Source: Opisthocomus hoazin (taxonomy: Eukaryota; Chordata; Aves; Opisthocomiformes; Opisthocomidae). From it: a DNA stretch of 64,000 nucleotides. Location of the stretch: assembly GCF_030867145.1 (NCBI RefSeq), contig NC_134429.1, positions 19,391,115 to 19,455,114 on the forward strand, given 5' to 3'. How positions within the stretch are numbered: the first letter of the stretch is position 1; each line of letters opens with the position of its first letter. The notes beneath the pieces are model-generated. The model made no database searches and was not told the origin of the DNA. It saw only the letters and a program-made list of their open reading frames with translations. Below, piece by piece: positions 24,407 through 57,897 of this stretch. A program made the translations under genes and the position numbers.

Positions 24407-24517
24407 TCAGTAGTAGTCATCCTTCTTGCCATCAGCTCCCTGTATGCCTGCATGGTCCTTCTGGTCTTGGACAAGTTCCACGTCATCATTGTCATCCACC
24501 TCACCTCCATGATCCTC
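24407..24517 (-). CDS. GOLIM4-like exon 15 (last coding exon)
   Basis: The exon encodes 36 residues, very rich in Asp, Glu and Lys (starting EDHGGEVDDNDD, ending KKDDYY), and then a TGA stop. This fits the acidic C-terminus of GOLIM4-type proteins. The acceptor is strong: a run of 15 T on the sense strand (24546-24560) and a pyrimidine-rich stretch precede CACCCAG. Its reading phase is 0, which does not match the phase-1 end of exon 14. Confidence 0.7.
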   Translation of the reverse strand, partial: EDHGGEVDDNDDVELVQDQKDHAGIQGADGKKDDYY

Positions 24518-27500
24518 CTGGGTGCAGAGGGAACAGCCAGGAAGGAAAAAAAAAAAAAAAGAAAATCAGCAAGGCTTGGAAAAGGAGACCCTAACCAGCA
24601 GCGCATCATGCTGCTTCTGAGTACAGCTGTTCTACCATTCCAGCCCAGCCTGGGAAACTCAGGAAAACAGGGAAGAATCCATCTCTGTCAGGGACCATTA
24701 GGTGCCATTGGCAAGCCACTTAGCCAAGACACAGAAGTAAGCAAGAAGCCTGTGTTGCCATGATCAGCCTATTCATTTTAAGCACATAAAATATCCTGGC
24801 ATTACAATGCAATTTTAACATCTCAGCCTGTTGCCACTGCTACACGAGTAGCAGAAGATACCCTACATCCACCACATTTAAAACTGTGTAACAAATCCCA
24901 CCCACAATGTGCAGCAGCCAGCACAGTCTGCATGGGCACTTTTAGGTCCAATGATCTGGTGTACAAGCCAGGTTCTACACATGGGATAAGGTTAGCTCCT
25001 GACATGAACTTTTCTCTGCCCACCCCTTATTTCCCCATCCCCTGCATTCCCAGCAGGCAGCCCAAACCCTCAATTCTTCATCAATCCCATTGAAACTGCA
25101 GAGAAAGCCAGCAGCAGCCATTCACAAAGGGCAAGGAGAGGATGAACAAGACTGGAAAAGGATCCCTCATTTCGATCTACATGAGCCCCAAGGCCCTAGG
25201 GTCATCCTCTCTAGTACTCATGCCCTTAATCTTTGGTGCCCTCCAATCTTTCTCCTAGAAGAATGCCAACTTGTCACCGACTACGGTAGTCCTGGGGCTC
25301 TGAGACACAGCAATAATACCTGTTTTCAGCCAAGTGGAGGAACATTTGCTTCCTGGCAAATGTGGCCCAACACACCACCTCCCACACTTGCCCATTCTGG
25401 GGATGGATGTCTTATTCTTCTGCCACCCATACTTCTGTTAGACTTGTTGGCTGTAACCCAATGACCCTTCTCAAAGTACAGGTGTAGTTCTCCCCAGCTC
25501 TTCCATAGACACCAGCTAGGCCCAGTAGGACCTGTGCAGCAGCAGACTACAGGGCTCCCAGTGAATTCCTCACCACAGGAATAAACCCAGGGTGATGCTC
25601 GGAGAAACACATATTGATCTTGCCTTGTAATTCAGCCCAGCTGCTGCTGGTAAGCATCTCTCAGCTCAACTGCTGCAGATTGATGCAGAAAGGAAGGAGA
25701 TGGGGAGACAGAGCATAAAGGGTACTCTGACCACCTGAAAAAGGGAGCAGAGGTAAGTGAGCTCCAGGTTTGTTCTGGAGACCCAGCTCACTGAGCAGGC
25801 AGAGACAAAACTGAAGGCAGTGCACACATCTGGTTTCCTAACAGCTGGGTCATCCTCAGCTCCTGGCTACCAACATACCCAGGTAACAATCACACCAGAG
25901 AGGGAAAGAGGAAGAACCTTGGTGTCGTACAATTTCTTGCTCCTGATCTTCTTGATAGTCATCCACTGGGTCTTCCCTGGGCTTGGCAGGTCTGCCAGCG
26001 TCCTGAAAAATACAGCAAGTGAGACGCTGCTGACACTGCCCCAACCGACTTCCATTCCCTGCCAAGGATACAGCTCTCTCGCATTAGAGCCCCAGATCTG
26101 GAAGACTGGGCTCCAGATCATGAATGAGGGGCAGCAGAGAGACAAGAAGGCAACCCAAACTCCATCTATCATTTTTCCACCCAGTCTCTTCCCACTTGCT
26201 GGCAGCAACCACCCAGCTCCTTCCACTGTGAAGGGAGAGGCCACTCCTGCAGCAGGAAGGTCCCAGGGCCAGGGCTTTTCATGAGGTCCCAGGACTGCAG
26301 GGAATCTAGAAGTTATTTAGGGGAGAGCTTTAGGGAGCACAGCCCAGCCCTGTCTGAAAGTCAGGCATTTATGTCACTAATACTTTCCACATTTTCACTA
26401 ATCTTAAGGAGGTGTTGCTCTGTGGGTGCCAGCATCTCTTTCTCGTTTGATTTCATTGGCCTGGATTTCTTTCTTTTTTTTTTAAACCTCACTATTAATC
26501 ATGATTTTAGAGCCTGAGAGATAAAACACTCCTTTTTAAAACAGGCAACACTCAGCTGCTTGTCAAAACAAGCTAACATTTCCCTGATGCAGTCTGGCTT
26601 CAGATAGCAAGAAGCACTCTGCAAAACTAATGGATTCCATCTGCAAGCAGGCAAACAAGGAGGCAGAGTTCTCGCGTGTTGTCACTGCTGCCAAGAGCCT
26701 GCTGCATGCCCATCCCAGGAACAGCAATGACTGCACTGACCAGACCCCGAGCACAGACTCTTATCGTCTCTGGTTTTGATCTCTCAAGTGCTTGAAAAGA
26801 TACAGCACCTCTGCAGTAATAGCCGTGGAGTGAGACATCTCCTATTCAACGTCTCTCCAGCCACGTAGGTGCTGCAAACGCCGGGGCTGACTTCAACAAG
26901 CAGAGAAGACAGAGCCGGAACAAGTTCTGGAACTGACCGACCCACTGGTTCTCAGAAAGATGTTTCTCCTGCCTGCCATACCCCTTCAGTGGAACTACGG
27001 ATCCATCCAAGAATGCAATGTTTCCCTTTGAGTCCTTAAGCTCTCTACCTCCCCCCATTCACAGCTGGGGATCTCTCCCTGGCCCCTGGTGGTTGCCCTC
27101 ATGTCAGTCACCTTCAGTGGCTTCTCCTTAGACTCTTCCTTCACACTGGGCTCCTTGAGCTTCTCCAAACCTCCCACTTTCTCTTCAAAGTCAGGTCTCT
27201 CCAGCTCAGCTTCCTCAAATTCATCCTCGCCTTGGTTATTGGGATCCTGGGCAGGATCTGCAGCATCATCTGGCATCTGGACAAGAAAAGCCTCACATGA
27301 ATACCAGGCGTGGTATCCCCTTGGGAGACAGAGGCCAAGGTGAGCCTGCCTTCCCCAGCAAGCAGGAAGCGCTGGCTTGTATCACTTCAGTCACACCTCT
27401 GTTCATGCACGTTAGCGGTTCGAAAAACCAAAAACCCAGTCTTTGTTACCCCTCTGAATCCCTCCAGAACCAAGGAGAAGTTTGGAGTTGCATGTTACAG

Positions 27501-30500
27501 AAACTTGTGGGAAAGCATCTAATTAAACGGGACAGCTGGATTCTTATTCAGAGCTGGGCTGCATCCAGATGACAGCATTGCTTACCATCGGCTCCTGGAC
27601 AACAGTCTCCTTCTCAGAATGCAAGTTCTCCTCTCTCTCAATCACTCCCGCATCTGCAAGGAAAGGGGACAGTTATCAGTGTACTCTCTCAGAAGTCAGT
27701 GCCCCCAGTTAAGATTCCCCCTGTTGGGGAGCGGCTGTATTAACTCTGTGCCAAGCAGGGATTTGTCTCAGCCTGCAGGCTGAGGCAGACAATGCTCTGT
27801 GTATGTTTTCAGAGGAATGCTTCTTCCGTGCCATTTGCAAGAGTTCAGGGCAAAGCAGCACCATGCTCCCACAGCTGCCAAAACTGCTGCGTTGTCCCCA
27901 AGGCTGGGGCACAAGCATGTGTTGAAGCACGCCCCTGACTTACCAAATAGTACATATGACACAAAGACAAGAACCAGCTCTGAATTCAGCCCCCAATCCA
28001 TATCGAGATGCACCTTTCTCTCATGCCACTGCTAAGTCTGGGCAGTATCTATAGCAGCAACCCAGCCACGCAGCCAGTCAGAGCATCGCTGCGAGCCGAA
28101 CGAGAGCACGGCAGGTCAGCACGGTAGTGCCACCTTCCCCCCTCCTTGGCACGCAGCTGGGGACAAAAGGCAGGCTTCTTGTGTCAGGTAAGGGGACATT
28201 CAGGGCAGGAGGAGAGTGAAATACAGCCTTTGCTTTCAACTAAGTAAAGGCTTAATCCTCACCCTGAATTGTATGTGGCTCTGGCACTCACCACTGCCAT
28301 CACCACGGGCTCAGCGCTTCCCCCAAAACACTAAAGCAGCCTGTGAGACAGCAGTGTTCCCACCCAGACAGCAGCACAGCCAGGGCAGTCGAGTCATTAC
28401 TTCGGTTGTTAATTCCAATTAGGACACAGAGGTCAAGGGCTATTGGTCCTCACACTCCCTTATACCTGCCATGAGGCCTTTTCAGGGCAGAATTCCCTTT
28501 GATGTGAACCAATTAGTTCAGTTCCTCTCAGGGGACTTGCTGCAAATCAGGTCAGCAAAACATGAAATAGCAGCTAAACAGAGCTGTGGGAAAGCACAAG
28601 AATACCAAAGCTCCTCTCCAAACGGGCATCTGTGTGCACGTTAGCTGTTACCCAATGTTGCTGTTCTGGAAGGGAGGACTTCACCTGCACAGAGGGAACT
28701 GAGCCAGTAGCCTGGGAGGAAATCACCCATCTCGGGCGATTTCAGCCTTTTGATCCAAGATTCAGTTAGAACCACTGACTTTCATCTCTGCCCCATGACA
28801 TCCCTCCTCCATTCCAAATCCAGAGCCAAAATCTACTGTCAAGAAACCAGGCTCAGACCATTCTTGTAATACGTAATAGGACGCAAGTCAGTATTTCAAA
28901 TGAGACCCTCACAGGAGTCTCAGCTCCCAGCTTCCCTGCCTTACTGCATTCGAGATCGCAGCAAAAAATTAGCTACATGAAAAACCACCTACTTAGTCAT
29001 TCTGCCTCAGTCTAGCAACAGATTGAATTAGCATTAGTCATATCCACATTTCAGTGTCTCTTTGACAAAGGTAACTAGCTAACTTGCAGACCTTACAGGT
29101 TATTTCCATGTCTTTTTTATTGGCTTCCAAAGCAAGTCTGTGGCTTCCCTCTTACTCTCGTAGACATACAGCTGCAATTAAGTCAACCTCCCCTTTGCTA
29201 CTGGACCTATGCAAGTGCTGCAAGCCCCCTGCCCACCCACTGCAGTTTTCCAAAAGGTCTAGTCATTTTACAGCTGTTTTCTGTTGTTTCACACAACAAA
29301 ACTGGTTAATTGTTCCCTCATTTTGCCACTCACTTGTGATGACCATTACAGGCCCATTGATAAACCTCACCTGGAAAATGAGGCAAAGAAAAGATTCTGC
29401 CCTCACATACATAATCTAATGGATTACTCATTAGTTGGTTTCATGGTGTGATGACGAACTTTACACCAACTCAAAACGTTTCTCCCCTCCTGTTATTAAC
29501 CAAGTGAGTCAAAGCACAGGGGGCTGAACAGATCTGGATCAGAAGACCGAGGAATTCTAACTCAATGTTCTAAGAGCTGGCCTCCAACTGCACAAATGCA
29601 ATTACCTACTGGACTTTACAACAGCTGTAGGTGCTCTGTTGGCTGACTGACAAATACAGCTAGCTGCCCTTGAATTTATTTGCTTCTAGCTCCTTACGGA
29701 TGGTTGGGAAATTTTCTGCCCCAAGTTAGAAAACCCACTTCTAAAAAATATTAAATCAATTCCTATAAGAGACTGATATCAAATCTTGCAAAAAGCAGTG
29801 ACATTTTCCCCATCATTCCCATAGGAAAGAAAGAAGAATTGACTTAACTTACACAGATTTTGACTCTACTACCTTCAAAATGTGTGAGGTTTTCCTTTAA
29901 CACAGGCAGAAAGCCTCCCCCCCCCCGCCCCCCCCCCCCCCCCCCCCGATTAGCACTAAATTAGTGCTGCATAGCATAGGATTAGGGAAACGATACCCAT
30001 TTCAAGTTCCTCATCATTTGTCCTTTCCTTCTCGCCTTCCTGTGCAGCTATTTCATGCTGTGCCCCTCTCTTCTGACTGGGTGGCTGAGGGCTGCCTTTC
30101 AGCACCTCCTGCCCAGGTTTGGGATCAAAATGAAGGCTCTTTGGGTGACCGTGCACTTGTTCTTCATCCATCTGGGCATTCACTTTGTGAACTATGTCCT
30201 TCCAGCTGCAACAAAGGTACAACACAAAACAGAACACCCTCCCCTCAGTATATCAAGAGATATTTCATAATGCCATTTCATAAAGGCAAGCAGAGAAAAA
30301 GCCTCCAGAACATGTAGAAGTTTGTCCTAATTTAACTTTATGGCAAAACGAGCAGATTGCATTAGTTACTGTGATAGCTGCTTGGAACAGAACATTTAAT
30401 ATGCCACGTAAGTACAAAATAAGCTATGCTTTATAAACACAGTTTATTGTAGAACTGATTTATATCATTCATATGATACAACAACATATCCACATAGCAA

Positions 30501-33500: not shown

Positions 33501-36500
33501 AATGAGCAAGTTGCAGCTCTAATACACAGCTTAATGCCTCTTATTTATAGAAACCGAAGGCATTTTTAGCCACCTTGCTGCTGCAGATGGGTTGCTTCCA
33601 TCATGCAGCATTTCTTCAATTTGCTAAACAAAACACGATATTAAGTCACCATCGCTGAAAGGGAGGAGACTGCTCGAAGTCAGTTCAGACTCCCATCCCA
33701 CCTCTCCTCTCGCTAGCAGGACATCCTTGCTGAGCCGATCTCACTCAGCAGTACCTCCTCTTTCTCTCCTCCACACACAAACACTTCACTGAACAGTTCT
33801 GATACGAAGGCAGCTACAGAGCACGCACCAATAACATGAGTCTTTTTTCTTTTGGCCAGCACAGCACCCACAGCAGGCTGTGCATTCCATCACACAACAT
33901 TGCCTGGAACACAACTAATCTGCTTCGGCTGAGATAGAGACCTGGCAGCAACATTCAGCAGAATTAGATGACAGTGGAACCAATAACTAACACTTTCTTC
34001 AACCATCTTTCAAGCAGAAACCACAATAAACACCAGGGACGAGCTTGCATGGTACTTTTCGGCCTGACCATCAAGAGCAGAAGGGAGTTTTCTTTCACCG
34101 ACCTTTGCATTTGCACCTGCTTGCTCCCTGTAGGGTGGTGGTTGTCTGGCATCTGAGGTTTTTCTGCTGCAGAGGGTTGTTTCGGATCAGGCAGTGACAA
34201 TCCAGGAGCCTGGCTTTCCTCATTGCTTTGCACCTGAATGCGCATCACCATCTTTAGATCCTGCAGAGAAGACGCATGCATACTTAATACACACAAGCTC
34301 CTCATCTTATCAGACACCTGCAGATCCCCCTTGCATTTGGGCAGGCTTACGGGCCAGAAAAGTCTTTTGTCAAAGAACAACAGGTTCAAAAGTGCTCCAG
34401 AACAAATCTACAGTCCTGTCCAGCCAGCCTGCAGCAAAAGACGTCCTTCTCCTTCCACACAGCCATGAGGAAATAATTTGGATCCTATGTGACCCAAGCT
34501 TGTCTTGAGTAGGTGAATCTCCAAAAAAAGAGGAACAACACAGCCACCTCTAAAAAAAGAAACCAAAACCCATCCATTGCCATTATAATAGTTCCTGTAA
34601 TTATAATCTAACCACACTGCAATTATTGTCATTTTTTCAGAGGTTTGCTTTCTATGAGCTCAATCCCAATCACCCCAGGAGACAGGAGAGCTGCTTTTAT
34701 GATTTACTCTTTGCAGGTCTGTCAGGATCCAGAATAAGAACCCCAACCCGTTCACCTGCGCCCAGCAACTACACCACAAACTCCAAGAGTGCACAGGAGT
34801 CTGAAACCCGAGGCTGGGACAGCTTCCCCATCAGGGAAGTGGAGCACACAATATGCACGTCGGTACAAATATCATAGTTCTGAGCTTCAAGAGCAAGGGC
34901 TACACCAAACAAGCAGCGAGTGTGCAGAACTTACTGGGTTCCCATTTGGGAGGCTGTTCATGGTCCGGGTGAATCGGATCACGTGGTTGTCCCCACGTTT
35001 GGCTGGCCAGGCTGGCATGGCATCCGGCAGCAAGTTGGCATCTTGCTGTGGGGCTGGATGGGTGAAGAGCACATTAGCCTGTGGCCTCGGGCCATCGTTA
35101 CTGTACGAGTTCTGGCCCAGCAGCAGAGGGCTATCTGCCTGCTTCTGAACCCCAGAGACTGGTGATGCCAGCGGGTTCGCAACAGGACGATTCTCCTGAT
35201 TGACTGGAAAAGCCTGCAAGGGACAAAGGGCAAGAGCAACCTCTGAAGGAACAAGCTCGGTTCCCTCCAAGTTCAAAGCCCCATGCTGAAAACCCAGAGA
35301 AGCCCTACAGAACTCTCCTCCCCAGGGTTCCCTGGGAGTACCACACCTTCTGCCTCACGAGCTGCAACGGGCTGTTGGCTGGCACCATGGGCTGCTCCTT
35401 CAGCGCCTGAAACTGCTGCTGCCCCTTCCCAGCTCCTCCTCCTTTGAAACTCGGCATCTTCTGTAGAGCTTCCTTGAGCTGCCTGAACTCTTCCATCTGG
35501 GCCTGAGGGGATGAGAAGGGTACAGAGAAACCTCACATGGCAACAGCGTTAAACTCCTTGCTGAGAACAGCCAGTCTCTTATGGCCAGTTGGTCAGCACA
35601 GATATACTCCTAAAGAAGATATATGTTTTATATATATGAAAGACTGGAGATAATCCACAACCATTAACGACAAGCCCAAGCTAGTCTTCAGCTTTCTCTC
35701 CAGATTTCACAGATACTCTGTATTCCTCCTTTGCCAGTCTTGTGTCTTATTTTAGTGCATACTATTACCCAAGAAGTGCTGACGATGACTCCAGTTCTTT
35801 GCCCAATGCTATTCAGTGCACCTTTGCACAAGAGGAGTATGCTAGGTCTTGTTAGGTGTGGCTGCCCCTCCTCCTGTGCCTCACATGCAGGTACCACCTT
35901 CGGGTCAGCTTTTTTTCTTCCTGTGGAGGCATTTCTCCATGGTTGCACTCATCTCAGCAGGGCTGACAACGATTGGCATAATCCTACTTGACAATTCAAT
36001 TTACTTTGCAAGACAAATGAAAATTGATTCTCCTATACCGTTAAGCAAATGCAATGCTTTTCTCTCTACTGCAGCTTATTTCTTCCATCTCCAACCCTGA
36101 AAACTAGGGCTTGAAAAAGCTACTCAGGAAAAGCTCCCCACTCCTACTCCAGTTATTTATAGGAAAGTGAGGAGGGAGAGCTTTTCATATGCTCACCAGG
36201 GTACCTGGAAACAGACCAAATTAGGGACTGGGCAAAGTAGGAAAGCTTCCAAGCAGCAAGGAAGGTTTAGCAGGATATTAATTCCTAAGCAGGCTCTGTT
36301 GAGTTCAGTTCTTGCCCCCGAAATTTGAGCTTAAGATTAACATTAAAAAAACAAAACATAACCCAACAAAACAAGTCATCAAAGGTAACATAAAAGGAAT
36401 GAGGGAAGGAAATGGAAGCCAAGAACAGTTCATGGGATATAGCCCTAGCTAGTAGGAGAGTGCTTCTACTCACAACAAGCCATATGGAAACAAAACTCAT

Positions 36501-39500
36501 CAAAAGCCTTTTCAGGTGGTCAGCCCAGAGGGAAAGAAGCCTAGCCTTAACGCACAGACTCCCACATGCTGTTTGCACCCCATCACAGCAAGCTGTGCAT
36601 ACATCACTTGATGCCTCCATACCTCATTTTACCTGGCAGACCAACTGATACGACAACTACTGCAGGCTGGGCTTGTGAAACGCGTTAGAATCCTTGGAAC
36701 ACAGACGTGTGGTCTCGAATGCAAGTTACTGCCCTAAACTTTCACCTGCCAGCAGGAAGCAAGATCAACAACAGGATGCTCAGTGCAAATTGACACTGCA
36801 GAGCTGATAAAGGAGCTGGGAGCCTTTGTGAGTGTCTGCTCTAACGTATGGCATCTTGCCCCACTGAAGGCAAACACCATTCCATTCACCTTTGTGTTAT
36901 GAAACACTGGTGAATCAGAGAACGGTTTGGGTTGGAAGGAACCTTTAGAGGCCATCTAGTCCAACCCTCTGCACTGAGCAGGCACATCTTCAGCCAGATC
37001 AGGTTGCTCAGAGCCCCTCCAAGCTGACCTTGAATGTTTCCAGGGATGGGGCATCAACCACTGCTGATTAGACACTATAAAGGACTGATCAGAAAACTAA
37101 ACAGAAAACTAAGATTTAAAACTAGGGTCACTGTCAAAATGATCCAAAGTATTTTCTGAAACCACTGGGACCAACCTCTGCCACTTCTGTAAGAGCCAGA
37201 AATAGCAGCCAGACCGATGGCTGGAGCACAGCTTTGTTACACGACTGTCTAGTACATTCGGAGCAGGGGGCTGAGCTGTGTCTCCCACACCCAGGGCAAA
37301 TCCTTTTACTCTTGCTCACGCTTAGTTTTGGCAAGGAATGACAGTGAGCTGTTTATTGCAAACTGCTTTTCCCACTGACCACAACACGGAAGGGGACAAG
37401 TTAAGACTGGCAGAACAAAAGCTGCCACCATGTTTTCCAGTCTGCGAGCACTTGGCTTTGTAGGCTCAGCCATCTCTAGACAAGTTTTTTTTTTAATGCT
37501 GCTCAGATTATGTGCTAACTTGTGCATTTGAACTGCTGACTGCTTTCTCTAATGCAGTACCATTAGTTGAACAGCATTTTAAGCGTACTCTGCTGAAGAG
37601 TAATTCAGGACTGGTCCTACACGGTGTGCCAGATGCAAATGCACTCAGCACTGACCGAGCAAGACAAAAGTGGAAGTACGTCATGGCAAAGAGGACCTTC
37701 GATCAACTGATATTGACCCAGGTTGTCAATGGCAGAGGCCTGTATGATGGGAGCTGGCTGGGTCTCAATGTTGCTTGAGAAGAAGGTACAGACCAGTGAT
37801 AATTGCCAGCTACTTTAAAAGTTTGGTCAGGAGGCCAAAAATGAAGGCTGAGACACATTTTGATAGCAGGAGGTGTGAATGTAGGCTGGCCAGGGCACTG
37901 CAGAAGCTTGGAATCACCTGCTGTTTCAATTCCTAGGATGGGCTTGTCCCGTGTGGCCACAAACAGCCCGCTGATGATTACCTGGGCACTAAGGAGCTGC
38001 GAGTGAACTTCCTGGTGGGCCTTCCGAAGAAGCTTGCTCTCTTCTCTGAGTTTAAAGACTGTATCTGTAAGAGAAGAAATCTGCTTGAGAGCACTATTTT
38101 CACAAGTGTAGCATTTCTCTTCCTTATGATAAATTCCTCTTGACCTCATAGACCTCTCCAAGCCCAGGAATTACAGTGAAGCACTAACTAGGGACTAGCC
38201 AAACACACTGACAAACCTGAATCACCATTCTTTTCAGCACTGCCCATCCAAGGAACTCCCTCCTCTCCGGAGCGTCTCTGCTAACTTTTGCTATCAGGGT
38301 CAGGCTCTTGCTGCACTTGCTATCAGAATAAGGTATTTGTTTCTTTATTTTCCTTACCCATTGCAGCTGAATCGCAGGGAGAGCAGTGAGCAGTGGTCAC
38401 TGTCCCTCCCTGTGGTAACTGGAAGGTTGAGAAACAACTACAAGAGAGGGCTGTCAGGTCTCCTGAACCCACAGCAGATCCAACAAGGAGGTTCCCTCCT
38501 GCTGCACAGAATCTGCCTCTTGAAAGGATGGTACAAAAAAACCCCACAACCCACTTACAGAAAGCAATCACAGGACAACTTGATCCTTGGGTGCATTTAT
38601 TCCTGTGCTGCTAAGTAGCAAGCTTGTGCCTTGCAGCCCCTAGCTTGGGCTCCTTTCAAGTTCTCTGCACACTCTCAAGCATGTCAGTGACAAGACACAA
38701 TGCATCTATGTTTCACTGCCTTGAACATAATTGTATATCCTCCAATAAAAGCAAAGACTGTCAAAAAGCATCAGCCTTATTTTGGATCTTGAAGCTCTCT
38801 TAAAATATCACTAGAACTGCATGCACTGGGATTTCTCTGCAAACACAGTGGCACCTGCCAGGACAAGGATGGGAATTTTTCCCGTAACAGGATGGTCCCT
38901 TTGCTGCAGGCTGAATTTCATGCGAGATTTCAGCTCAAGTTTACAGATATTCCTGATTACAGTAGTGTATCTGTTTTTATAACATTCACCCATGGGACAG
39001 GACATTTTGCCATTGAGGTTGGGTGCTGAGTTCTTGCCTCACAGTGAAGGTTAACGTCAAAATGCGAAAAAAGGCTCTTTCCTGCAGCCAGAAGGAAATC
39101 AGGAATTATGTCCTACGGGACTACAGCTAGAACAGCTTTAACTGAGTTACCTTGTGCACAGACAGTGCGGAAAGGCCACAGAGCTGTGGGCGTTTCCAGG
39201 CAGCTAGTCCAGGCTAGGTGACAGCTAACACAAGACTACTACTGCTAAGACCTCCGACTACAATACAGCCATTCCCCCAGGCCTTCAAGAGAACCAAAGG
39301 CACCTCGACTGTGGGAGAGACGGGTCCAAAAGAATCCTGCAGTTTCCCTGAGCCAATACCTCAATAACATCTAGGTCTTCAAAGCATATTCAGAAACTGG
39401 AAATCAAAACCTTCATGCCATTGTACATCCTTCCTCTACCACCAGCATGGCAGACATGAAATCCTGGTCCCAGTGATCTCATCAGGAGTTTTACCACTGG

Positions 39501-45500: not shown

Positions 45501-48500
45501 TCCGACCCTGCTCAGGAAACACAACCCAGCGGTGCTAAGGGTTGCTGGAATCTAGCCTTCTTTCTGCATCCCAGAATTAAATTACCATTTCACTGCCAAC
45601 GCTCTAACTAAAAACATTTAAATACCACCACCACCAGCCATGGTTGCATTGCTCTAACAAAAACAAACTTTAAGATCAAGATATGCTTCAGGTAGAGCAT
45701 GCGATAAGCTATAAAATGCCATAAGCTGCCCCCCTCTGAGCCTCTTACATGGACTGGAATACACTGTATTAGCCCAAAGGGCAAGCTGCAATGAATAGAC
45801 CCATTTTCACACTACGAGACCCAGAAAAGAACACACTGAACAACAGAACTCCTGTGCGATAAACGGCACAAAGGCTACCATTGAAATGAGGTGTAGGTGA
45901 AGGCTGTAATCTGATACAAAGCCCAACAGAATAAACAGGGAACTCCCATGAACCTGAACAGCCAGGAAGGAATGTAGATCAACACGGCTGTGTGGTCTCC
46001 CCGCTCCGCACCAGCACAAGCTGCAGGGAAGCCTCGGTCTCTGCCGGTGCGTTCGCTTACCAGAGATGCCCAGCTCCTGCCAGGGAGCATCCTACCCCGC
46101 AGCAGACGAAGCCAGAAGCTTCCCTTACCTTCAGTATCTTGTGCTGGGAACTGAGGGCCCCGTATCTGTTCATAGAATCTTGCTGGAAAGAGAAAGATTC
46201 AACAGTGCCATTAGATCCCCGAAAAACCTAAGGCAGGGAGAAACACCCATGAGAACCCGCCCAGCCACTGCACCAACAGCACGTCCCCGCTGCCCCTTCG
46301 CACGCACACGGTGACTGGGAACGGGCTACCGAGGTGACCAGCGGAACATGCAGCCTGAGCACGGCTGGAAAAGAACCCCTGCAAAGCAGCCGAACCCCCA
46401 GCTCATGAACTGCGCTCTCTCCATTCGCTTTCAGAGCGGTTCTTCCCCCCATCTTCAGTTCTTTATCTAGGACAGGCCCAGCACTGAAAGAGCTTTGCAG
46501 AGTAAAACCCCCCGGAGCAGGCTGAGCACTCTTCGCAGCGCCTGAGGGGGAGGCAGACAGCACCAGAGTGAAGACTTCTGCCTACACACAAAAATCGCAC
46601 CATTTAACAAAAAATATTATCACTAAGCAATCGAGTAAGCCTCAAGCAAGCTTCTATAACTAGGTGCAGCTTTCAAACTAAGTTCAGCTGACACAAACCA
46701 GCAGCAGAGAGGGACTGACGCGTGTCCACAGAGGGTCTGTACAGGTTTAACAGATCTGCTTACGCCCTGCTAAGAGTCACGTTCTTCCCCTTTGTCCCCA
46801 GGGCACCATCCTTCACCACAGCAGGCCTGAAAGCCACCAGCCCCGTGTGCCCAAAGGCCAAGTCCCCACAGCAGCAGCGGCACCCGAGAGGGAACACACT
46901 GCAGCATTTTCCATTACAGGCAGCTTCACAAACATCTGCTGGGATCTATGCTTAAAGCAACATGACCGAGACACTAAGCAGCACCACAGAAGTGCAAACT
47001 AACCACCATGCAGAGATTTCCACTACAAGCCACAATTCAACTCATATGATAAATACTCACTACGGCATGAAATATTACCAGCAAATGAGCGCAAATTGCA
47101 AGGGAGCTCCCCAGCCAGCAGAGTATTCAGACATTCACCCATGAGTTTTTCTGTAACAGGATGACATTCACCCACAGATGAGCAGGCTAAAAGCAATTCC
47201 TCTTCTCCAGCATCTCATCAACAGATGCTCCGAGAAAGGAATAAAACCAGCCTTATAACTTCAAGCGAATGGGACAGACTGTAACCCAGGGATGCATTTC
47301 TTCCTAACCCTCACTGAAGAGTCCTCCTCCTCCCTGCTGAATGAGAAGTCCACAGGCTAGTGGAAATCATCTGACAATCCCTGGAGACAGAAAACAATGG
47401 CTATGCTTCCCCCAGCAACACCACGGCCTTTCTCCTCCACGTTCCCTGTGGTGTGCCTTGCATTCAGTTTCCCCAGGACTCTTCTGTACCACGGAACAGC
47501 AATTCTCTTCTCAGGCTGCAGCGTGGGACTCCCTGCTACGCCCGGAGCTGAGAACCGAGTCATCTGTCACACATGGGAGAGTAGGCAGAACAGCTCTAGC
47601 ACAACACAGTCTTTCCCTAAAATGAAGTCAATCCTCACACACCAACAGCCTTGGCAAGGTGGAGTCAGCCAAAGTTCATCTTGTACCATACACACTCAGT
47701 CTGTCACGCCTTCCAGACAGCAGCAGTGGCCTCACGACTGAGGTGGTACTAGAAAGATCTTTACCACTGTTATACACACACACTCTGAGGAATAAACCAT
47801 ACCTACCTTCTCCTTGTTGAGAGCTTCCTGAGCTTCTAACTTATACACTAAAAAATCTAGAAATGGAAGAAGAGAAGACAATTTAATAAGCTGGAATTTA
47901 ACAAGAATCTGTTTTATATTTTGGTGGGGGGAGAGAAGGAGGAAATCGGCCCCTTGCTGAGCAAAAGGCTGCAACTCAACAAGCTGGAATGCAGCCGGAA
48001 TGCTCCTAGATGCTGCTAGGAGACTCCACCCAATGCCCTCAGAAAGCTGGAAGTGGTTCCCACGAGAGCTGTCCACCCATCCAGACTGGCCCAACTGTCC
48101 TTCGTTTCCCATGCTAAAGGGAAGTGCATTGGTGAATGCCTACTTCAGCGCACAAACAGCTACATTTTGATGTCACTGAAACGGCGCAAGGATTTGGGGC
48201 GCTCTGAAATGAGAGATGACTCTGGAAAAGAGAAGCCAAAGCTTCTGTGAGACCAAGAGGAACTAATCCGCTGACCTCATCTGTGCCACCCTCTTAAAAT
48301 GGGAAGGTCCTACGACAAGATAACATTTATTAGGATGCTTCATTCTCTCAGTCAGTCCCCACCAAAGAAATGAAAGAAGAGACAGAAATGCAGCTTCTCC
48401 CTCAGTACATGGCGACAGCCAACCCTGGATGCTGTACACCAGCATCTCCAGCAACAGAGTGCACGCAGGAGTAGAGAGCAGCGATGTAGCTCCACATACC

Positions 48501-51500
48501 AGTTCTGAAGATAAAACCCAAGCTATTAACTTGCCAGCAACAATCAGGTGCAAAGGGGTCTGACATCCAAGCGTGCTGCTCCACTGAAAGGTACATGAGC
48601 TGTCTGTTCGCTTTCTACTTCCTGCTGTATTTCATGGCCTTACAACATCCTGCATATGTTTGTCTACTTTTGTAGATCAACTTTAAAGGATCAGACAGTC
48701 TCCACTGTCCATGTATTAGGGAGTGCAGTGATGCTAATATTAAGCACTTCTAGAGCTCACCATCTTCAAGATCACTGTTATACGAAAGTTTATCTATTTC
48801 CAAGAATAAAGCATGGCCTAGCGCAGGGTCTAGCTATCACTTAAAGAGCACATCACGGGTACTGTTACTTACAGATTAGACTGAGGACATATGTAAGGAT
48901 ATGAGAGAACAGGGCCCGCCTCCCAGCACCTTTTGCCTCTGGGCAACAGACAAGTCAGTTAAGTATTCCTTTAGGTACAAACCAGGGATGAGTCTCACCT
49001 GGGGGACGTTCAGTAACATCCACACATGGCCCTGAAGGCAGAAAATGCCTTGGGTGCGACACACACATCTCCCCACGGGACAGCTGGAGGGATGGCTGGC
49101 CACTGCCATGCCACCCACGCAAGACACTCACCTTCCTTTGTCTTCTTGTGTTCCCCTCGCTCCTTCTGCAAGGATCGTTCTAGCCGGGATCTGTGCTCGT
49201 ACACGACTAGGGAAGCAGAAAGAGGCAGAGCGTGAGATAAGCCCTGAAGTGGCTTCCAGTATATTCTTTCCCCCCAAAACAGGCCTCTCGCAGGTCATGC
49301 AGCCAGGGACACGTGGACCTCAAATCCTGCTGTGGACTGCACCAGCAAGTGCCCAAGAGAGCAGGTTTGGGCAAAAGAGCCTTTCCTGTTTCGAACGGCC
49401 TGCATCACTGTTTCTAGGCTTCAGCACACAGCAGCTCACAGGTAAAATCCAGACCAAGCAAATCAACAGTCCTGCAATACGTGCAGATACCCGATCTCCT
49501 AAGCAGTGAAAGGGTCAGGCCCAGCTACAAACTGTTTGCACTTCCTTGTCAGCTGTGAACAGATAAGGTCTGGAGCAGAGTGGGGACAACTGGACTAGAG
49601 ACAATGGATATTCCCGATCTAACACACCGGTCTGCCATCCTGTCAGCATTTGCACTCAGGTTTTGCTTTACAGTCTAAGCTGCCAAGTCCAAGAGCTGGC
49701 TTTAGTGGCCAGTGGGTAAACTGCACATTTGCGGGCCAAGTCCACTACCAGGCTCAAGACAGCCAGAGCCTTCCAGGTCATCTGTTCTATAAAGACATCA
49801 GCAGCACACAGGAGAGACATTTTCTCCCTTTCCACAACTCAACCATTAACTGGCCCTCAGGCCACTAAAGAAGAGCGAGCCAAGCAGCTCCCTCTCCCAT
49901 TGCACAGGAGCCGGGAAGGGAGAGGGATGAGGCTGCTTCGTACAGCAGCCACATGACAAATGGAAGTGCCAGAGAAGCTTGCTGATGGATGGTGATTTTA
50001 ATCCACCCTGATGTCTGAATGCTGAGAGCTTTCCCTGAGTCCCAGCACTCAGCTGCACGAGGCTCCTCCATCCCCTCTGCACAGAGACCACCAGCACCAT
50101 GCCAGAACCGCCCTGGGCAGCGATTCAGAGCGGAGGGGCGATAGCCGAAACTGGCCTCTGGAGCCAAGATCTTTGGGGGCAAGTCATGCCACGACGCACA
50201 GTCTCCAGGAAAACAAACACAGCGAGATGATATTTGCAAGCATAAAACAAGTGCTAACCCATTCCTTGTTGAAATCTTGCCAAGCCAAGGGCCCCAGGTG
50301 ACCCGTGCTCTCACTGCTAGCTCCACTCCAGTCGTACGGGAGCAGCAAAGGCAGCATGTGCCCTGCATTAACAGGCGGTTTGCTGCCTGAGAGCAGGCTC
50401 TCCAGTCTGGGGGAATAAGAAACACAAAACATCCACATGTATAGCTACTGTTTTACACCGTTAGTGGCACTAAGCCTATGGTAGTGCAGATGTCGCTCTC
50501 AGTATGTATGTAGAGAGGAGCTCATAGGTAGTTCTAGCATCTGAAATATCAGGCTAGGGCATTTTTCTAAACAATACTAAAGCTCATCCAGGAGCTGCAA
50601 GGCTGAGGTAGGGACTACACAAGAATCAAACTTTGTGATCAGAATAGTCCTTCCTTGCCCTACCATCTGCAAGTCTGCCATCTCTGCAGTCCCTAAAGGA
50701 AAACAAATGAAAAACCACCCAAAGAAAAACACTTTTTCTGCTGTCCCACCCATTTCTCCCCAGGCAGAGAATCAAGCCACTCAGTTCTGCAGACCTCCAC
50801 CGAACTCACAGCCTCCCTATGCCTCACCTCCTCCTTCTGCATTGCAAAAAAGCAACTATTCCTTGCATTTTTAGACTGTCTTCCTCACAGCGGGTCTCCT
50901 AATTACCCTAAGCGCATGGAAGACTATAATTTCACCAGGCAGCAAAGCACTGCTCCCATGACCATTCTTCAAGAGCTTTTTAATCAACGCTGGACATTCA
51001 AGGGAAGCATTCCTCACCTTCATGAGCCACATCCCCCTGCAACTTCATGCAGGCAGACCTGAGAGTACAGTTTAATCATTCTCTCCAGCTTCTTTAAAAG
51101 CCTAGTTCCGCACTGCGTGTTTCTCTTCTGTTGGATCACAACAAATCCAAGTCTGGTGGATTTACCAGGACCCTCACAATGACTACTGTTTTTCTTCCCA
51201 CCTGGAAATGCCTTTTCTGCACAGAAAAAGAACCTCCACATGATTTAACTCCATGATTTTTAAGCCAAGCTCCTGACACTGGCTGAGTCCAAGCCTGGGG
51301 TTTTTGCAATACTTCGGTTTACCAGCAGTGGATCGGTTAATACTCAGTGATCTCCAGCAACAGCTGAGTGCCTGAGAGAATCAGGGGAAAGCAGCAGCAG
51401 TGATAAATGAAGCCAGGCATGATAAAGTGTTGAAGCCTAAGGGTTTTGCAGATTGTAGTTCAACTGCTTCCCAAGCCTTCTGGGGGCACTAGCCCAAGGC

Positions 51501-54500: not shown

Positions 54501-57500
54501 ACAGCTCACCAGACTGAGCCTCTAATGCCCTCCAAGCCTCGTGACACAGCACCCGAGTCCCCCAAATCACGGCCCATAAAGGAAAGCCCAGTATTTGGCA
54601 AGGTGTCTCCGTGTACTTTCAGACATCCTCCAACCCCACCCGGCAGAAAGAGAAGAGATGGAAGGACAGAAAAGGCAAGCAGACTTTCCTCCTGGATTCC
54701 ATCTGGACCACAACGCAAAAACAGAATCACTGGGTCACTGCAAACAGCCACCTCTGTGCGCAGCAGCAAGAGCTGGCCGGGACGAGGGGAACCAACCACC
54801 AGGGAAGAGCTTGGATGGGGTCACACACACGACACCACCTCCCTTTCTTCTTCTCACACAAGGTGTTTTACCCTACAGCAAAGCCAGCAGCTGCTTCGCT
54901 CTTATTGTAGAAGAGCGGATGAGATCCACTCCCCTGTGCGCAGCCGGCAGCGGACAGCACGTGGGACAGGCAGTGCTGGTTTCCAGACAGCTTCACTCCC
55001 ATTTTCCCTTTCACTCAACTCTTGGCCCAGCCCTACACTTTCAAGCTTTATTTACAGAGGCTACCAGAAGTATTAACGATATATTATACTCAGATATAAA
55101 AAGTAGGAAATACTTGATAGCTGAGAGGAAACACCTCAAGCACTGGTTAAACAGTGCTGAACTCCACCTCAGAATAACACCTCCTCCTTTTGTAGGCAGA
55201 AATCAGAAGCAAAAGACACAGCAATTAAAAGCACACAACAAGTCAGCACCGGCGCAGAGCCCAGAGCCCTGCCACCCCGCTCTCCTGCGCCCAGCACCAA
55301 CGCAGCGCAGGGAGCAGCGCCGCGAGACGACAGCCACGGCCGTGTGCACAAGGTACCTCTGCGCTGTGAGACTTCCACGAACACGGCCCCCCTCTGCCAA
55401 CCACTAGCCTTCTCCCACCAGCCAAATCCAAAAAGCAGCTTTGCCTTTGTAAAAATTGTTGGACGAGTGCGTGTCTTCTCGAAATAAAAAGGGTACCCAT
55501 GGCAACAACAGTATTTTGGAATGGGAGGGCTGACAGGGGGTTAGAAACCCCAGCAACAGGCTACAGCTCTGCCAGTCAAACATCTTTGGGTGGAAAAAAA
55601 TATTACGAGCGTGTCTCAGTTGTTTGCTTGAGCCTGCTGCTCCCAAAACTGGGGTTCCCCGAGGCTACTGCTGTCAGCTTATTCTCTGAAGCACCAGCCC
55701 CTCTCTCCCAGAGCAGCAAGAGATGCTGACACACCAGGAAGGAATGTGGGCTAACTTCTGCCCTGCCGATCTTCCCATCTCAGAAACACAGGACGCGGGT
55801 GGAAATCGCTGTGGCTGGGACTGTGCAATGCATCAGGAGCTGTAGTTGTTTGACTGCCTTGTGATGGAGTGAGAAGAAATGGAAACAAAACGTCAGGTGA
55901 CAGCAGTGAACCCCTACACACGTTAGATCGGTTCACAAGATCCGGTTTTTTAGAGCATGTTTCCTTGAGAGACAAATGAAACCCACACACCACACTCTGC
56001 CCCCCAGTTTACAGGCAGAAATACAGAGCCCGGAGCACATGTACAATGCCACATTTGCATCACGACGCTGCACACAAACCCACCAGAAAAGACTGAACCC
56101 TGCAAGGCAGGGATGTGGAGTCACAGATCGGCAGCATTCCCCAGCAAGACAGGCTATCGAAGCAGCGTCACTGGATGTGTCAACAGAAGTCAAAATGGAT
56201 ACCCCGCATTTGATTTGAGCCCAAGGAAGAGCTCTCGATTTAAACACTATCATATAAACCCACTTGTTTGAAGAAAAAGTATTAAATGCATCTCAAACTT
56301 GCGTCACTAGAGCCACAGGCAGACAATATTTTGTCCATGTAAAATTCATTCTGCAGGCACTCCAGAACCAACCCGTCCTCCAGCACTACACACACAACTG
56401 CTGGCTACCAAGGAGTGGATTCCCACCAAACCCCTCTCGAGACTCCAAAGCTAGCGACAGGTGCTGGAAACGTAGCTTTGGTGGATGCAGCCAGGCTAGA
56501 ACGACAGACTGGAGAAAGGAGATAAGAGTACAGCAAGGGAGTAACATGGGTCCTCAGCCTTCCCTACTGGGATCTCTCCATGGGCTAAAATGTCACCCTC
56601 CCGCCGTCAGACATTTACGCAAGGAGGACAAATGGGGGGGGAGAGAGGGAGGGGCAACATAAACATTCTGCTTGCATTGCGGCAGCTCTTGCCAGAGGAA
56701 CCAAGCACTGGTCAGCAGGCTCAGAAAAGCCAAATCTTCCTCCTCCTCCTCCCCCTTTACTGGGGAGCCCTGTGCTGCAGCATCTATCCGCCCCAAAGAA
56801 GCTGGCAAGACTTTCCCAGCCCCAGATCACTCTCCCGAGATGAAGATAGGTTTGTTTTCCTTGCAAAGGCAACGGGCAGTAGACAGCATGAAGACAAACT
56901 TTCCTAAAGACCCCCTGCCTCTCCATTCACTGCCCGGACAGACGCTTCGCGAGAGCGGAGCCACATCTCAGAGCCTGCCCAAACAGTCTCGAAGGCCTGG
57001 TTTAATTTTTACTGCTTCACGTTTAGAAAGCTGTAGGACTAGTCTTTGTGGCCAAAGGGAACTACGGGGAGAAGAAATGGAATAGACGTGACGTAGCTGA
57101 ACTCGCCAGTCCCGCACACGCCGCTCCCCTTGCTGCTCCGAGCAGCGATTCAGACCCAAGGCTACCCTAATTCTAGGCAGCAAAGGGGGGAAGGAAAGAG
57201 GCGACGTCTTCCTAGGGCTCTTTAAAGCCAAAAGCCAAACCTCGCTCCCCAAAGGCACCCAGCTGGTCACTGGGCTGAGCGGCACCAGCACCAGCGGGTG
57301 ATGTTGGGAGAGAGGGAAGTTCAGAGGGCGCGCGTGCACCCACGGAGAGCAGCCACTCACCTTGGAGCTGCGCAGACAGCGCTTCTTGCTGCTGTTTGTA
57401 TTTCTGGGCCAGGGCTTCGGCATTCCGCACCTTCTGCTGCAAGTGGTGGTACATAAAAACTCCCGAGCCCAAACACGCCACGGCCACCAGGCAGAACCCG

Positions 57501-57547
57501 GTCTGCAGGAGCCCCTTCTGCCTCCTCGAACACAAGCTGGTACCCAT
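24407..57547 (-). CDS. GOLIM4-like (GPP130-like) type II Golgi membrane protein, 15-exon gene
   Basis: Fifteen splice-flanked exons encode about 620 residues: cytoplasmic N-terminus (1-12), signal-anchor transmembrane segment (about 13-33), lumenal coiled coil (about 35-225), a Pro/Gln/Asn-rich linker and an acidic C-terminal tail. The first 200 residues align without gaps to human GOLIM4 as I recall it, with runs such as VVYEHRSRLE and LVYKLEAQE, but with too many differences for a bird-human orthologue. The tail is shorter and shares mainly one motif (DPNNQGEDEFEEAE, residues 513-526). GOLIM4 cycles between cis-Golgi and endosomes and is turned over in response to manganese; whether this relative does so is unknown. 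Exons 1-13 sum to 1,671 nt, exactly 557 codons. Exons 14 and 15 do not join in frame, so a small exon is probably missing from the model. It is probably a paralog of GOLIM4, so I give no symbol. Confidence 0.88.
24518..25917 (-). other. GOLIM4-like intron 14 (may hide a small exon)
   Basis: The interval between exon 14 (phase 1) and exon 15 (phase 0) should contain one short phase 1-to-0 exon if both neighbours are right. I scanned the minus strand for an acidic coding stretch between AG and GT and found no convincing candidate. Confidence 0.5.
25918..26002 (-). CDS. GOLIM4-like exon 14
   Basis: Encodes DAGRPAKPREDPVDDYQEDQ and then EQEIVRHQ, resembling the GOLIM4 tail around its 'DEQYQEEAEEE' stretch. 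The acceptor (TTTTTCAG) is good. The donor CAAG then GTTCTT has a good exon side but a poor intron side, and leaves phase 1. An alternative donor 39 nt downstream (CTGG then GTATGT) is stronger but would add non-acidic, unlikely residues and is also phase 1. Confidence 0.65.
26003..27111 (-). other. GOLIM4-like intron 13
   Basis: About 1.1 kb between exons 13 and 14, phase 0 at both ends. No repeat or additional coding segment was recognised; a short T-run lies near 26474-26484. Confidence 0.65.
27112..27276 (-). CDS. GOLIM4-like exon 13, conserved acidic motif
   Basis: The exon encodes 55 residues (503-557). It contains DPNNQGEDEFEEAE, identical to the GOLIM4 tail motif as I recall it, followed by a charged stretch rich in E and K. 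This motif is the strongest evidence that the tail exons belong to a GOLIM4-type gene. Splice sites are clean (TGTCCAG acceptor; CTGAAG then GTGACT donor), phase 0 at both ends. Confidence 0.94.
27277..27585 (-). other. GOLIM4-like intron 12
   Basis: A compact 309-nt intron, phase 0, between two acidic-tail exons. Nothing else was recognised in it. Confidence 0.75.
27586..27653 (-). CDS. GOLIM4-like exon 12
   Basis: Encodes 23 residues (480-502, DAGVIEREENLHSEKETVVQ then EPM) of the acidic tail. It has a CCTTGCAG acceptor, a GATG then GTAAGC donor, and phases 1 in and 0 out, which fit exons 11 and 13. No direct family match is visible; the call rests on splice signals, phase and composition. 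Confidence 0.78.
27654..29996 (-). other. GOLIM4-like intron 11
   Basis: About 2.3 kb. Its first 80 nt on the sense strand contain a long poly-G tract (listed separately). The rest shows no recognised repeat or gene. Confidence 0.7.
29917..29947. repeat. Poly-C / poly-G homopolymer tract
   Basis: The plus strand reads ten C, one G (29927), then twenty C. On the sense strand of the GOLIM4-like gene this is G20-C-G10, beginning 49 nt after the exon 11 donor. G-runs just inside introns are known splicing enhancers and can form G-quadruplexes. Such tracts are also prone to length errors in assemblies, so the exact length is unreliable. Confidence 0.95.
29997..30205 (-). CDS. GOLIM4-like exon 11
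   Basis: Encodes 69 complete residues (411-479) plus split codons at both ends. The sequence is hydrophilic with acidic clusters (DEEQVHGHPK, EGEKERTNDEELEM). The TTGTTGCAG acceptor is strong. The donor is ATGG then GTATCG. Phases 2 in and 1 out fit exons 10 and 12. It has no obvious counterpart in GOLIM4 and belongs to the diverged part of the lumenal tail. Confidence 0.8.
30206..33573 (-). other. GOLIM4-like intron 10
   Basis: About 3.4 kb, AT-rich. A 204-codon minus-strand frame (32333-32947) lies inside it but has no family match or splice context. No CR1 tail was recognised. Confidence 0.6.
33574..33623 (-). CDS. GOLIM4-like exon 10
   Basis: A small 50-nt exon encoding QIEEMLHDGSNPSAAA plus two bases of the next codon. 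The acceptor is TTGTTTAG; the donor AAG then GTGGCT is mediocre. Phase 0 in and 2 out fit its neighbours exactly, which is the main support. A different small exon could be used instead. Confidence 0.62.
33624..34116 (-). other. GOLIM4-like intron 9
   Basis: About 490 nt between exons 9 and 10. Nothing else was recognised. Confidence 0.6.
34117..34260 (-). CDS. GOLIM4-like exon 9
   Basis: Encodes 48 residues (346-393) starting DLKMVMRIQVQSNEESQ, then a Pro/Gln/Lys-rich stretch ending GSKQ. The acceptor is TCTCTGCAG; I chose the donor CAG then GTGCAA because it is phase 0, as required by exon 10. A second possible donor 17 nt further on (TCG then GTGAAA) would break phase. Diverged linker of the lumenal tail. 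Confidence 0.74.
34261..34934 (-). other. GOLIM4-like intron 8
   Basis: About 670 nt, phase 0. No repeat or further exon was recognised. Confidence 0.65.
34935..35213 (-). CDS. GOLIM4-like exon 8, Pro/Asn/Gln-rich linker
   Basis: The longest exon, 93 residues (253-345), phase 0 at both ends. It follows the coiled coil and is rich in Pro, Asn, Gln and Ala, so it is probably unstructured. It contains KRGDN (RGD at 325-327). Splice sites are good (CCCTTGCAG acceptor; CCA then GTAAGT donor). I see no counterpart in GOLIM4, so this may be a lineage-specific linker. Confidence 0.84.
35347..35502 (-). CDS. GOLIM4-like exon 7, end of coiled coil
   Basis: Encodes 52 residues (201-252). The start, MEEFRQLKEALQKMPS, matches the GOLIM4 segment VAEYKQLKDTLNRIPS, marking the end of the coiled coil; the rest is Gly/Gln-rich. 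It is joined to exon 8 by a short intron of 133 nt. Phase is 0 at both ends. It directly follows exon 6, so the GOLIM4 28-residue exon that normally lies between is absent from this model. Confidence 0.9.
35503..37981 (-). other. GOLIM4-like intron 6 (expected extra exon not found)
   Basis: About 2.5 kb. In GOLIM4 as I recall it, a 28-residue exon (QQHKNLLSEHEQLVV...) lies at this point. I searched the minus strand for its His-Lys and acidic pattern and found none. An antisense CR1 3' end lies at 36905-37068. Confidence 0.65.
36905..37068 (-). mobile_element. CR1 3' fragment, minus strand
   Basis: The plus strand reads 'gaacggtttgggttggaagg', 'ccatctagtccaaccctctg', 'agatcaggttgctcagagcc' and 'ttccagggatggggcatc', which is the reverse complement of the common CR1 3' end. 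It sits within intron 6 in the same orientation as the gene. The tail has lost its repeats. Confidence 0.88.
37982..38064 (-). CDS. GOLIM4-like exon 6, coiled coil
   Basis: Encodes 28 residues (173-200): DTVFKLREESKLLRKAHQEV and then HSQLLSAQ. This closely matches the GOLIM4 stretch ETVYNLREENRQLRKAHQDI. Phase 1 in, phase 0 out, with clean splice sites (TCTTACAG; CCCAG then GTAATC). Confidence 0.95.
38065..41988 (-). other. GOLIM4-like intron 5
   Basis: About 3.9 kb, phase 1. Short open frames only; no repeat class was recognised. Confidence 0.65.
41989..42139 (-). CDS. GOLIM4-like exon 5, coiled coil
   Basis: Encodes 50 residues (123-172) starting NQHEDVKKQLLDLQLQHNSL and containing QKYAQLQQEKDSE, the same length as the matching GOLIM4 exon, which has QKYLQLQQEKEQE. 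Strong heptad pattern. ATATTCAG acceptor; GCAGG then GTGAGT donor, leaving phase 1. Confidence 0.96.
42140..46128 (-). other. GOLIM4-like intron 4
   Basis: About 4 kb. It contains two plus-strand (antisense) open frames of 170 and 173 codons (42278-42790 and 45034-45555) with no known family match. No CR1 tail was seen. Confidence 0.6.
46129..46182 (-). CDS. GOLIM4-like exon 4, coiled coil
   Basis: Encodes 18 residues (105-122), QDSMNRYGALSSQHKILK, matching GOLIM4 QDSNSRYSALNVQHQMLK position by position. CTTTCCAG acceptor; GAAG then GTAAGG donor; phase 0 at both ends. Confidence 0.96.
46183..47806 (-). other. GOLIM4-like intron 3
   Basis: About 1.6 kb, phase 0; nothing else recognised. Confidence 0.65.
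47807..47856 (-). CDS. GOLIM4-like exon 3, coiled coil
   Basis: Encodes 17 residues (88-104), DFLVYKLEAQEALNKEK, nearly identical to GOLIM4 DFLVYKLEAQETLNKGR. The first codon is completed by the last base of exon 2. ATTTCTAG acceptor; GAAG then GTAGGT donor; phase 0 out. Confidence 0.97.
47857..49131 (-). other. GOLIM4-like intron 2
   Basis: About 1.3 kb, phase 1; nothing else recognised. Confidence 0.65.
49132..49206 (-). CDS. GOLIM4-like exon 2, start of lumenal coiled coil
   Basis: Encodes 25 residues (63-87): VVYEHRSRLERSLQKERGEH and then KKTKE, matching GOLIM4 VVYEHRSRLEKSLQKERLEH. This is the most conserved segment of the gene. CTTCCCTAG acceptor; GGAAG then GTGAGT donor; phase 1 at both ends. 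Confidence 0.97.
49207..57360 (-). other. GOLIM4-like intron 1
   Basis: The largest intron, about 8.2 kb. Its 54,261-55,407 part is unusually free of stop codons in two plus-strand frames (see findings). No CR1 tail or RNA gene was recognised. Confidence 0.65.
57361..57547 (-). CDS. GOLIM4-like exon 1, cytoplasmic tail and signal anchor
   Basis: Encodes residues 1-62. The ATG is in an excellent Kozak context (GCCATGG). A short basic cytoplasmic segment (MGTSLCSRRQKG) precedes a hydrophobic segment of about 20 residues (about 13-33), then the start of the coiled coil ending LSAQLQ, as in GOLIM4. The pattern MG-x3-CS is shared with GOLIM4 (MGNGMCS). Donor CCAAG then GTGAGT; phase 1. This orientation gives a type II membrane protein with a lumenal C-terminus. 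Confidence 0.96.
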
Positions 57548-57876
57548 GGCGGGCCCGAGGCGCAGCGATGGAGCGCTCCTTCTCCGGCGCAGCTAACGCA
57601 TCCGATGGCTGTCGCCCACCAGCCCCTTCCCGCCGCGAAGCCGCGGGTCCCGCTGCCAAGCCGCGATCCAAGTCTCGCCTTCGCTCCTTCCCAGCGCTCA
57701 CAGCAGCCGCGGCCGCCCCAGCCGCGTCTCATTCCTCACCGCCCGCCGCAGAGGAAGGCAGCCCGGAGCCGGGAGCAGCAGCCGAGGGGCCGGCAGACGC
57801 ATCCTCCGGTCCCCAGCGGCTCCGGGGGACGGGACCGGGGCTGCCGGGGCGCAGGGGGACCAGCGGACGGGAGAGA

Positions 57877-57897
57877 GGAGGAGGAGGAGGAGGAGGA
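57877..57897 (+). repeat. (GGA)7 tract, left arm of an inverted pair
   Basis: Seven exact GGA copies, 330 bp upstream of the GOLIM4-like start codon. It is complementary to the (TCC)7 tract at 58037-58057. Confidence 0.95.

Follow-up and report, generated by a model that had tools for sequence, protein, structure and literature searches.

A second GOLIM4-type gene between FNDC10 and MIB2 in Opisthocomus hoazin, a probable ancient paralogue of GOLIM4

The GOLIM4-type gene and its surroundings

We analysed a 64-kb stretch of the Opisthocomus hoazin genome (the window; contig NC_134429.1, here C16:19391115-19455114 of a 1.48-Gb genome), the sequence of which contains no N anywhere. On its minus strand, at 57547-24407 and in the FNDC10-MIB2 position of C16, lies a GOLIM4-type gene (the window gene) that is probably an ancient paralogue of GOLIM4 (GPP130). 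Our model comprises 14 coding exons, from an ATG at 57547 to a stop ending at 24407, with an open frame of 605 residues and GT-AG boundaries at 13/13 modelled introns. An earlier note on this DNA had given exactly these coordinates and this strand; it had also claimed 15 exons, the fifteenth of which we did not find. The note further took the DNA to be that of a bird, and 150 matches to feather-type keratins in this genome (150 of 315 candidates scored), grouped in arrays on C3, C26 and C30, agree with this. The count may be off by one given the weak splice sites at exons 10, 11 and 14, which are the least certain exons of the model.

Exons are numbered here after their GOLIM4 counterparts, and all lie on the minus strand. 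Exon 1 (57361..57547, 187 nucleotides (nt), phase 0 to 1, donor GTGAGT) encodes the start codon, a short basic cytosolic tail, the membrane anchor and the start of the stem (residues 1-62), and was recovered with an E value of 8.8e-7 in a genome search with a GOLIM4 query. The stem continues through exon 2 (49132..49206, 75 nt, phase 1 to 1, residues 63-87), exon 3 (47807..47856, 50 nt, phase 1 to 0, residues 88-104), exon 4 (46129..46182, 54 nt, phase 0 to 0, residues 105-122), exon 5 (41989..42139, 151 nt, phase 0 to 1, residues 123-172) and exon 6 (37982..38064, 83 nt, phase 1 to 0, residues 173-200), and ends with exon 8 (35347..35502, 156 nt, phase 0 to 0). The tail is encoded by the equivalents of exon 9 (34935..35213, 279 nt, acceptor score 6.3 and donor score 3.4, phase as in GOLIM4 exon 9), exon 10 (34103..34260, phase 0 to 2 as in GOLIM4, weak donor GTCGGT), exon 11 (29997..30205, phase 2 to 1 as in GOLIM4) and exon 12 (27586..27653, phase 1 to 0 as in GOLIM4, splice scores 5.0 and 4.9), followed by exon 13 (27112..27276), which carries the DPNNQGEDEFEEAE motif common to GOLIM4 (tblastn 2.5e-07; 0/500 shuffles as good), and exon 14 (25931..26002), with a score of 41 against 40 for the best of 500 shuffles and a weak donor, GTACGA. 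The last exon, with the stop (24407..24517), forms the end of the open frame and has no similarity to GOLIM4 exon 16.

The 5′ end is CpG-rich (57500..58499; GC 0.69-0.71, CpG observed/expected 0.69-0.80) and is a probable promoter, and an ATTAAA polyadenylation-like signal stands at 24335, 72 bases past the stop. No repeats of at least 60 bases were found inside the gene region. No Pfam model matched the window protein, and GOLIM4 gave one match, far below the cut-off. The gene order on C16 is SSU72, FNDC10, window gene and MIB2. Both neighbours named in the earlier note were confirmed by Pfam matches: FNDC10 lies downstream of the window gene (16144..17172, minus strand; Fndc10, E 2.3e-72), with exon 1 of SSU72 next to it (4479..4556, minus strand; Ssu72, 27.5 bits, cut-off 25.3). 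The nearest MIB_HERC2 domain, which we take to be that of MIB2, lies 33 kb past the window gene's start codon. A retroelement reading frame, presumably CR1-like, occupies 4481-5437 on the plus strand and overlaps SSU72 exon 1 (4556-4479) on the opposite strand.

Comparison with the GOLIM4 of the same genome

A genome search queried with the first 252 residues of the window protein identified a second locus, C4:24677120-24711060, which holds a GOLIM4 gene of 16 exons and 695 residues, identical to human GOLIM4 (unverified sequence) at 197/219 positions of the comparable stem. The window gene is thus ruled out as the bird GOLIM4 orthologue itself, for which it had already been judged too diverged. 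GOLIM4 is reported as a near neighbour of SERPINI across vertebrates, including sauropsids (PMC9664204). PDCD10 is found 115 kb downstream of the C4 gene, which fits the conserved GOLIM4 neighbourhood, and SERPINI1 was not found with an unverified query in the 160 kb around GOLIM4 (C4:24590001-24750000). Neither the genome search with the window protein nor the reverse one, with GOLIM4 residues 1-284, produced a convincing third copy. The reverse search listed C4, C16 and one weak match on C7; we attribute the weak extra matches, at C3 (E 0.72) and C7 (E 1.36), to chance. Scans of a genome contig collection for relatives of the window protein, and of a viral contig collection for relatives of GOLIM4, returned none.

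Residues 1-200 of the window protein, encoded by exons 1-6, align to the same-genome GOLIM4 without a gap, as the earlier note had proposed. The lengths (187/75/50/54/151/83 nt) and phases of these six exons are the same in both genes, and the duplication therefore took place at the DNA level. Exon 1 is identical at 29/62 residues to bird GOLIM4 and at 31/62 to the unverified human sequence, which fits the claim that about half of it differs. Identity to bird GOLIM4 is 22/25 in exon 2, 14/17 in exon 3 (36/42 for the two together), 12/18 in exon 4, 20/50 in exon 5 and 13/28 in exon 6; at the beginning of exon 8, 12 of 19 residues are identical. When peptides were compared with about 2.5 kb containing each exon, exons 2-6 and 8 each beat 500/500 shuffles, and DNA-level placements of exons 4, 5, 6 and 8 exceeded all 200. 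The best hydrophobic window lies at residue 13 in both proteins, and neither has an N-glycosylation sequon. As read from its sequence, the window protein keeps the GOLIM4 plan of a short basic cytosolic tail, a membrane anchor, a luminal stem and an acidic end motif.

The tail is where the two proteins part, and here too the prediction of a shorter and mostly unrelated sequence was borne out. After the stem, the window protein has 386 residues versus 448 in GOLIM4, a net charge of -33 versus -88 and a proline content of 10% versus 4%; it is acidic nonetheless (isoelectric point 4.68). Among the seven tail exons tested against shuffles (exons 10-16), exon 13 clearly and exon 14 narrowly scored above all 500, and these two are the only recognisable ones. 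Exon 15 was not found in the window gene, which is uninformative, most tail exons being unrecognisable. With its less acidic and proline-richer tail, the window protein would therefore probably differ from GOLIM4 in its luminal functions.

Exon 7

In human GOLIM4, exon 7 (84 bp) is alternatively spliced, with inclusion depending on RBFOX2 and an exonic GGAA motif, and RAB26 binding is stronger with the long form (PMC8373120); without exon 7, the protein neither binds ATP2C1 nor rescues secretion (PMC11178546). In the bird GOLIM4, exon 7 and the start of intron 7 lie at G000:C4:24698708-24699026, and the exon contains GGAA. TGCATG, the RBFOX motif, occurs three times after bird exon 7, at +79, +140 and +229. 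Within 300 bases downstream it is present at 0/15 of the other bird GOLIM4 exons; within 300 bases upstream, one or two copies are found at four exons (5, 8, 10 and 14). This distribution suggests that RBFOX may control GOLIM4 exon 7 in this bird too. Given that intron-7 deletions had no effect in the human study (PMC8373120), a role for the intron-7 motifs themselves is something we infer.

GOLIM4 exon 7 (84 nt, phase 0-0) would lie in the 2479-base intron between exons 6 and 8 of the window gene (35503..37981, minus strand). The best score of the exon 7 peptide in this intron was 17, matched by 151/500 shuffles, and the best DNA placement, at 35/84 bases, equalled the shuffle median. The window gene is, on these comparisons, without a recognisable exon 7, and this observation is new here. 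It sets the gene apart as a variant but is compatible with kinship to GOLIM4, because the human short isoform GOLIM4-S is also without exon 7.

Origin of the duplicate and comparison with known systems

The gene pairs DVL1/DVL3, TP73/TP63 and SKI/SKIL are divided between human 1p36 and 3q26 and stem from the early vertebrate genome duplications (2R). In the bird genome, Dishevelled domains occur at two places only, C4:18.67 and C16:19.08-19.10 Mb (7/7 listed matches), p53 domains at C4:16.41 and C16:21.14 Mb (6/6 listed matches), and the best 2 of 9 listed Ski/Sno matches at C16:19.90 and C4:23.82 Mb, the remaining seven being on C1, C4:73.7, C10, C14, C26, C40 and C41; we take the matches in these C4 and C16 segments, C4:73.7 excepted, to be the members of these three pairs. 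GOLIM4 at C4:24.68 Mb and the window gene at C16:19.45 Mb lie alongside the split families, which is the expected look of a whole-genome duplicate. In this genome, the three families tested therefore bear out the 3q26/1p36 argument of the earlier note. GNB1 and GNB4 have been mapped to 1p36.33 and 3q26.33 (PMC6952978). As side observations, Ski/Sno matches of identical score stand at C40:18931240 and C41:87043185, on large contigs that possibly represent the sex chromosome pair, or else a region present in duplicate; and the listed Dishevelled and p53-family loci number just two each, with no match among them for the third members, DVL2 and TP53. DVL2 and TP53 are neighbours in human, and their region may be missing from the assembly or very diverged.

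The distances between the proteins agree with an old event. Over 219 residues, the window protein is identical at 122 positions to bird GOLIM4 and likewise at 122 to the unverified human GOLIM4 (56%), with 197/219 between the latter two; at the 22 sites where these differ, it sides with human at 6, with bird at 6 and with neither at 10. Synonymous sites are saturated between the window gene and bird GOLIM4 (proportion of differences 0.825; maximum-likelihood dS 4.87 and dN 0.37, for synonymous and nonsynonymous sites; dS undefined by the NG86 method). Equal distance and saturation speak against a recent bird-only duplication and support one older than the bird-mammal split. In addition, a Golim4 (681aa) is listed beside Mib2 in the western clawed frog, the African clawed frog, the Tibetan Plateau frog and the Gaboon caecilian (PMC8717283 Appendix 3), with the two-lined caecilian as the reference species of the listing; the American bullfrog is also named for the Golim4-MIB2 pair, which is further said to flank Tas1r2 in mice (PMC8717283). 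Judging by neighbour and name, the amphibian gene is a probable orthologue of the window gene, and the latter is therefore probably not specific to birds.

Four other explanations have to be set against these data. That the window gene is a fast-evolving duplicate of recent, bird- or sauropsid-only origin is barely credible: our search covered one bird genome and the copy does differ from bird GOLIM4 at 97/219 residues, but a bird-only copy should side with bird at the informative sites, and both the saturated synonymous sites and the amphibian gene beside MIB2 argue otherwise. It is also very unlikely that the gene is a decaying pseudogene. The unrecognisable exon 7, the mostly unrecognisable tail and several weak splice sites would fit decay; the 605 open codons, the intact GT-AG introns, the near-identity of exons 2-3 to GOLIM4, a nonsynonymous-to-synonymous rate ratio (dN/dS) of about 0.08 averaged over both lineages, the CpG-rich start and the polyadenylation-like signal do not. 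An old, pre-tetrapod duplication that was segmental or dispersed rather than part of 2R is improbable to a lesser degree. Our evidence dates the event no further back than before the amniote-amphibian split, and GOLIM4 is described as duplicated only in some teleosts, with one copy each in gar and reedfish (PMC9664204); either the MIB2-side gene is lacking in ray-finned fishes or the count there was confined to the surroundings of SERPINI, and the single copy counts against a simple 2R picture. Against such an origin, the Dishevelled-p53 segment of C16 spans 2.06 Mb, or 0.14% of the genome, a small target to hit by chance, and the three families tested occupy the same two segments.

The last alternative is that exon 7 is present in the window gene and strongly diverged, giving a full-length-type protein with a changed stem segment. 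There is a weak, borderline candidate, an open AG-GT stretch at 37656..37739 (minus strand) that shares the 84-nt length and the 0-0 phase of GOLIM4 exon 7 and has the donor GTCAGT, compared with GTCAGC. In an in-register alignment, 28/84 of its bases agree with those of exon 7 (shuffle mean 20.5; 72/2000 as good), with a peptide score of -6 (shuffle mean -23.6; 123/2000 as good). This explanation is nevertheless unlikely: the splice scores are weak (1.7 and 0.8), the candidate was chosen after the fact, other placements within the intron score higher, its peptide contains one proline and two cysteines, and none of the shuffles reached the score of any of the other six stem exons tested. Even if real, it would have little in common with the ATP2C1-binding segment.

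Several further points weigh against the window gene as a preserved GOLIM4 paralogue. Exons 10, 11, 12, 15 and 16 show no similarity to GOLIM4 above shuffles, GOLIM4 exon 9 gives no tblastn match at the modelled window exon 9, and exons 10 and 11 were picked partly to preserve the GOLIM4 phases. The human GOLIM4 sequence used in the distance comparisons was an unverified one, not taken from a database. By a crude heptad measure neither stem reached significance (0.3 in the window protein; 1.4 in GOLIM4, whose shuffles had a 95% value of 3.1), so that of the signal-anchored coiled coil proposed in the earlier note the hydrophobic anchor stands as in GOLIM4, and ‘coiled coil’ stays a label that this measure does not back. 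The basic residue pair K11/R12 serves GOLIM4 in GOLPH3 binding (PMC11178546); in the cytosolic tail of the window protein K11 is kept and R12 is replaced by G, with R8 and R9 present.

Taken together, these results make it likely that the window gene is an intact ancient GOLIM4 paralogue, most likely the 1p36-side duplicate of the early vertebrate genome duplications, a proposal supported by the separate GOLIM4, by saturation and by the three split families. We infer its 2R age as well as the Golgi location and binding properties of its product. The anchor, the basic tail and the nearly unchanged exons 2-3 point to a type II membrane protein of the Golgi that has some of the stem partners of GOLIM4, and it is quite possible, if somewhat short of probable, that its mode of action is that of the short GOLIM4 isoform. 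The protein would then retain those functions of the stem that belong to exons 1-6 and 8 but, lacking on this reading a working exon 7 segment, would not recruit the Ca/Mn pump ATP2C1. It could serve as a scaffold independent of ATP2C1, or compete with full-length GOLIM4; the gene may thus be fixed in a short-isoform-like state. A more elaborate scenario, which we regard as rather doubtful, is that the ancestral GOLIM4 made both isoforms through an RBFOX-controlled exon 7, that GOLIM4 kept both and that the copy beside MIB2 turned into a gene devoted to the short form, modulating or competing with the ATP2C1-recruiting GOLIM4.

The accessible literature on secretion, Golgi manganese handling and cancer treats GOLIM4 as a single gene, and searches of open-licence papers found no description of the window copy as a 2R duplicate or of its exon-7 state; the gene may already be present in sequence databases under the name GOLIM4 or GOLIM4-like. 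A sister copy retained in a bird, with a probable amphibian orthologue, would change the evolutionary history of GOLIM4. If it is a true exon-7-less GOLIM4, it would offer a separable genetic test of the ATP2C1-binding segment, and GOLIM4 would become a clear example of two duplicate genes sharing out the alternatives of a splice choice.

Like GOLIM4, GOLM1 and GOLM2/CASC4 are Golgi proteins with GOLPH3-binding cytoplasmic tails (PMC8421267); the search of the bird genome with GOLIM4 listed only C4, C16 and the weak C7 match. The amphibian ‘Golim4 (681aa)’ shares with the window gene the MIB2 neighbour and the GOLIM4-type name (PMC8717283 Appendix 3), and is listed there plainly as Golim4, serving only as a flank of Tas1r2 (PMC8717283). 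GOLIM4 (GPP130) itself resembles the window protein in the gap-free anchor and stem over 200 residues, in the lengths and phases of exons 1-6 and in the acidic motif of exon 13, and differs in its recognisable exon 7 and in its longer, more strongly charged and proline-poorer tail, with 56% identity over 219 residues. The model of the window gene also resembles human GOLIM4-S (ΔE7), in which exon 6 is likewise joined in frame to exon 8 (PMC8373120, PMC11178546). In the human case, however, this is one splice form of one gene, whereas the window copy would be fixed as a separate gene.

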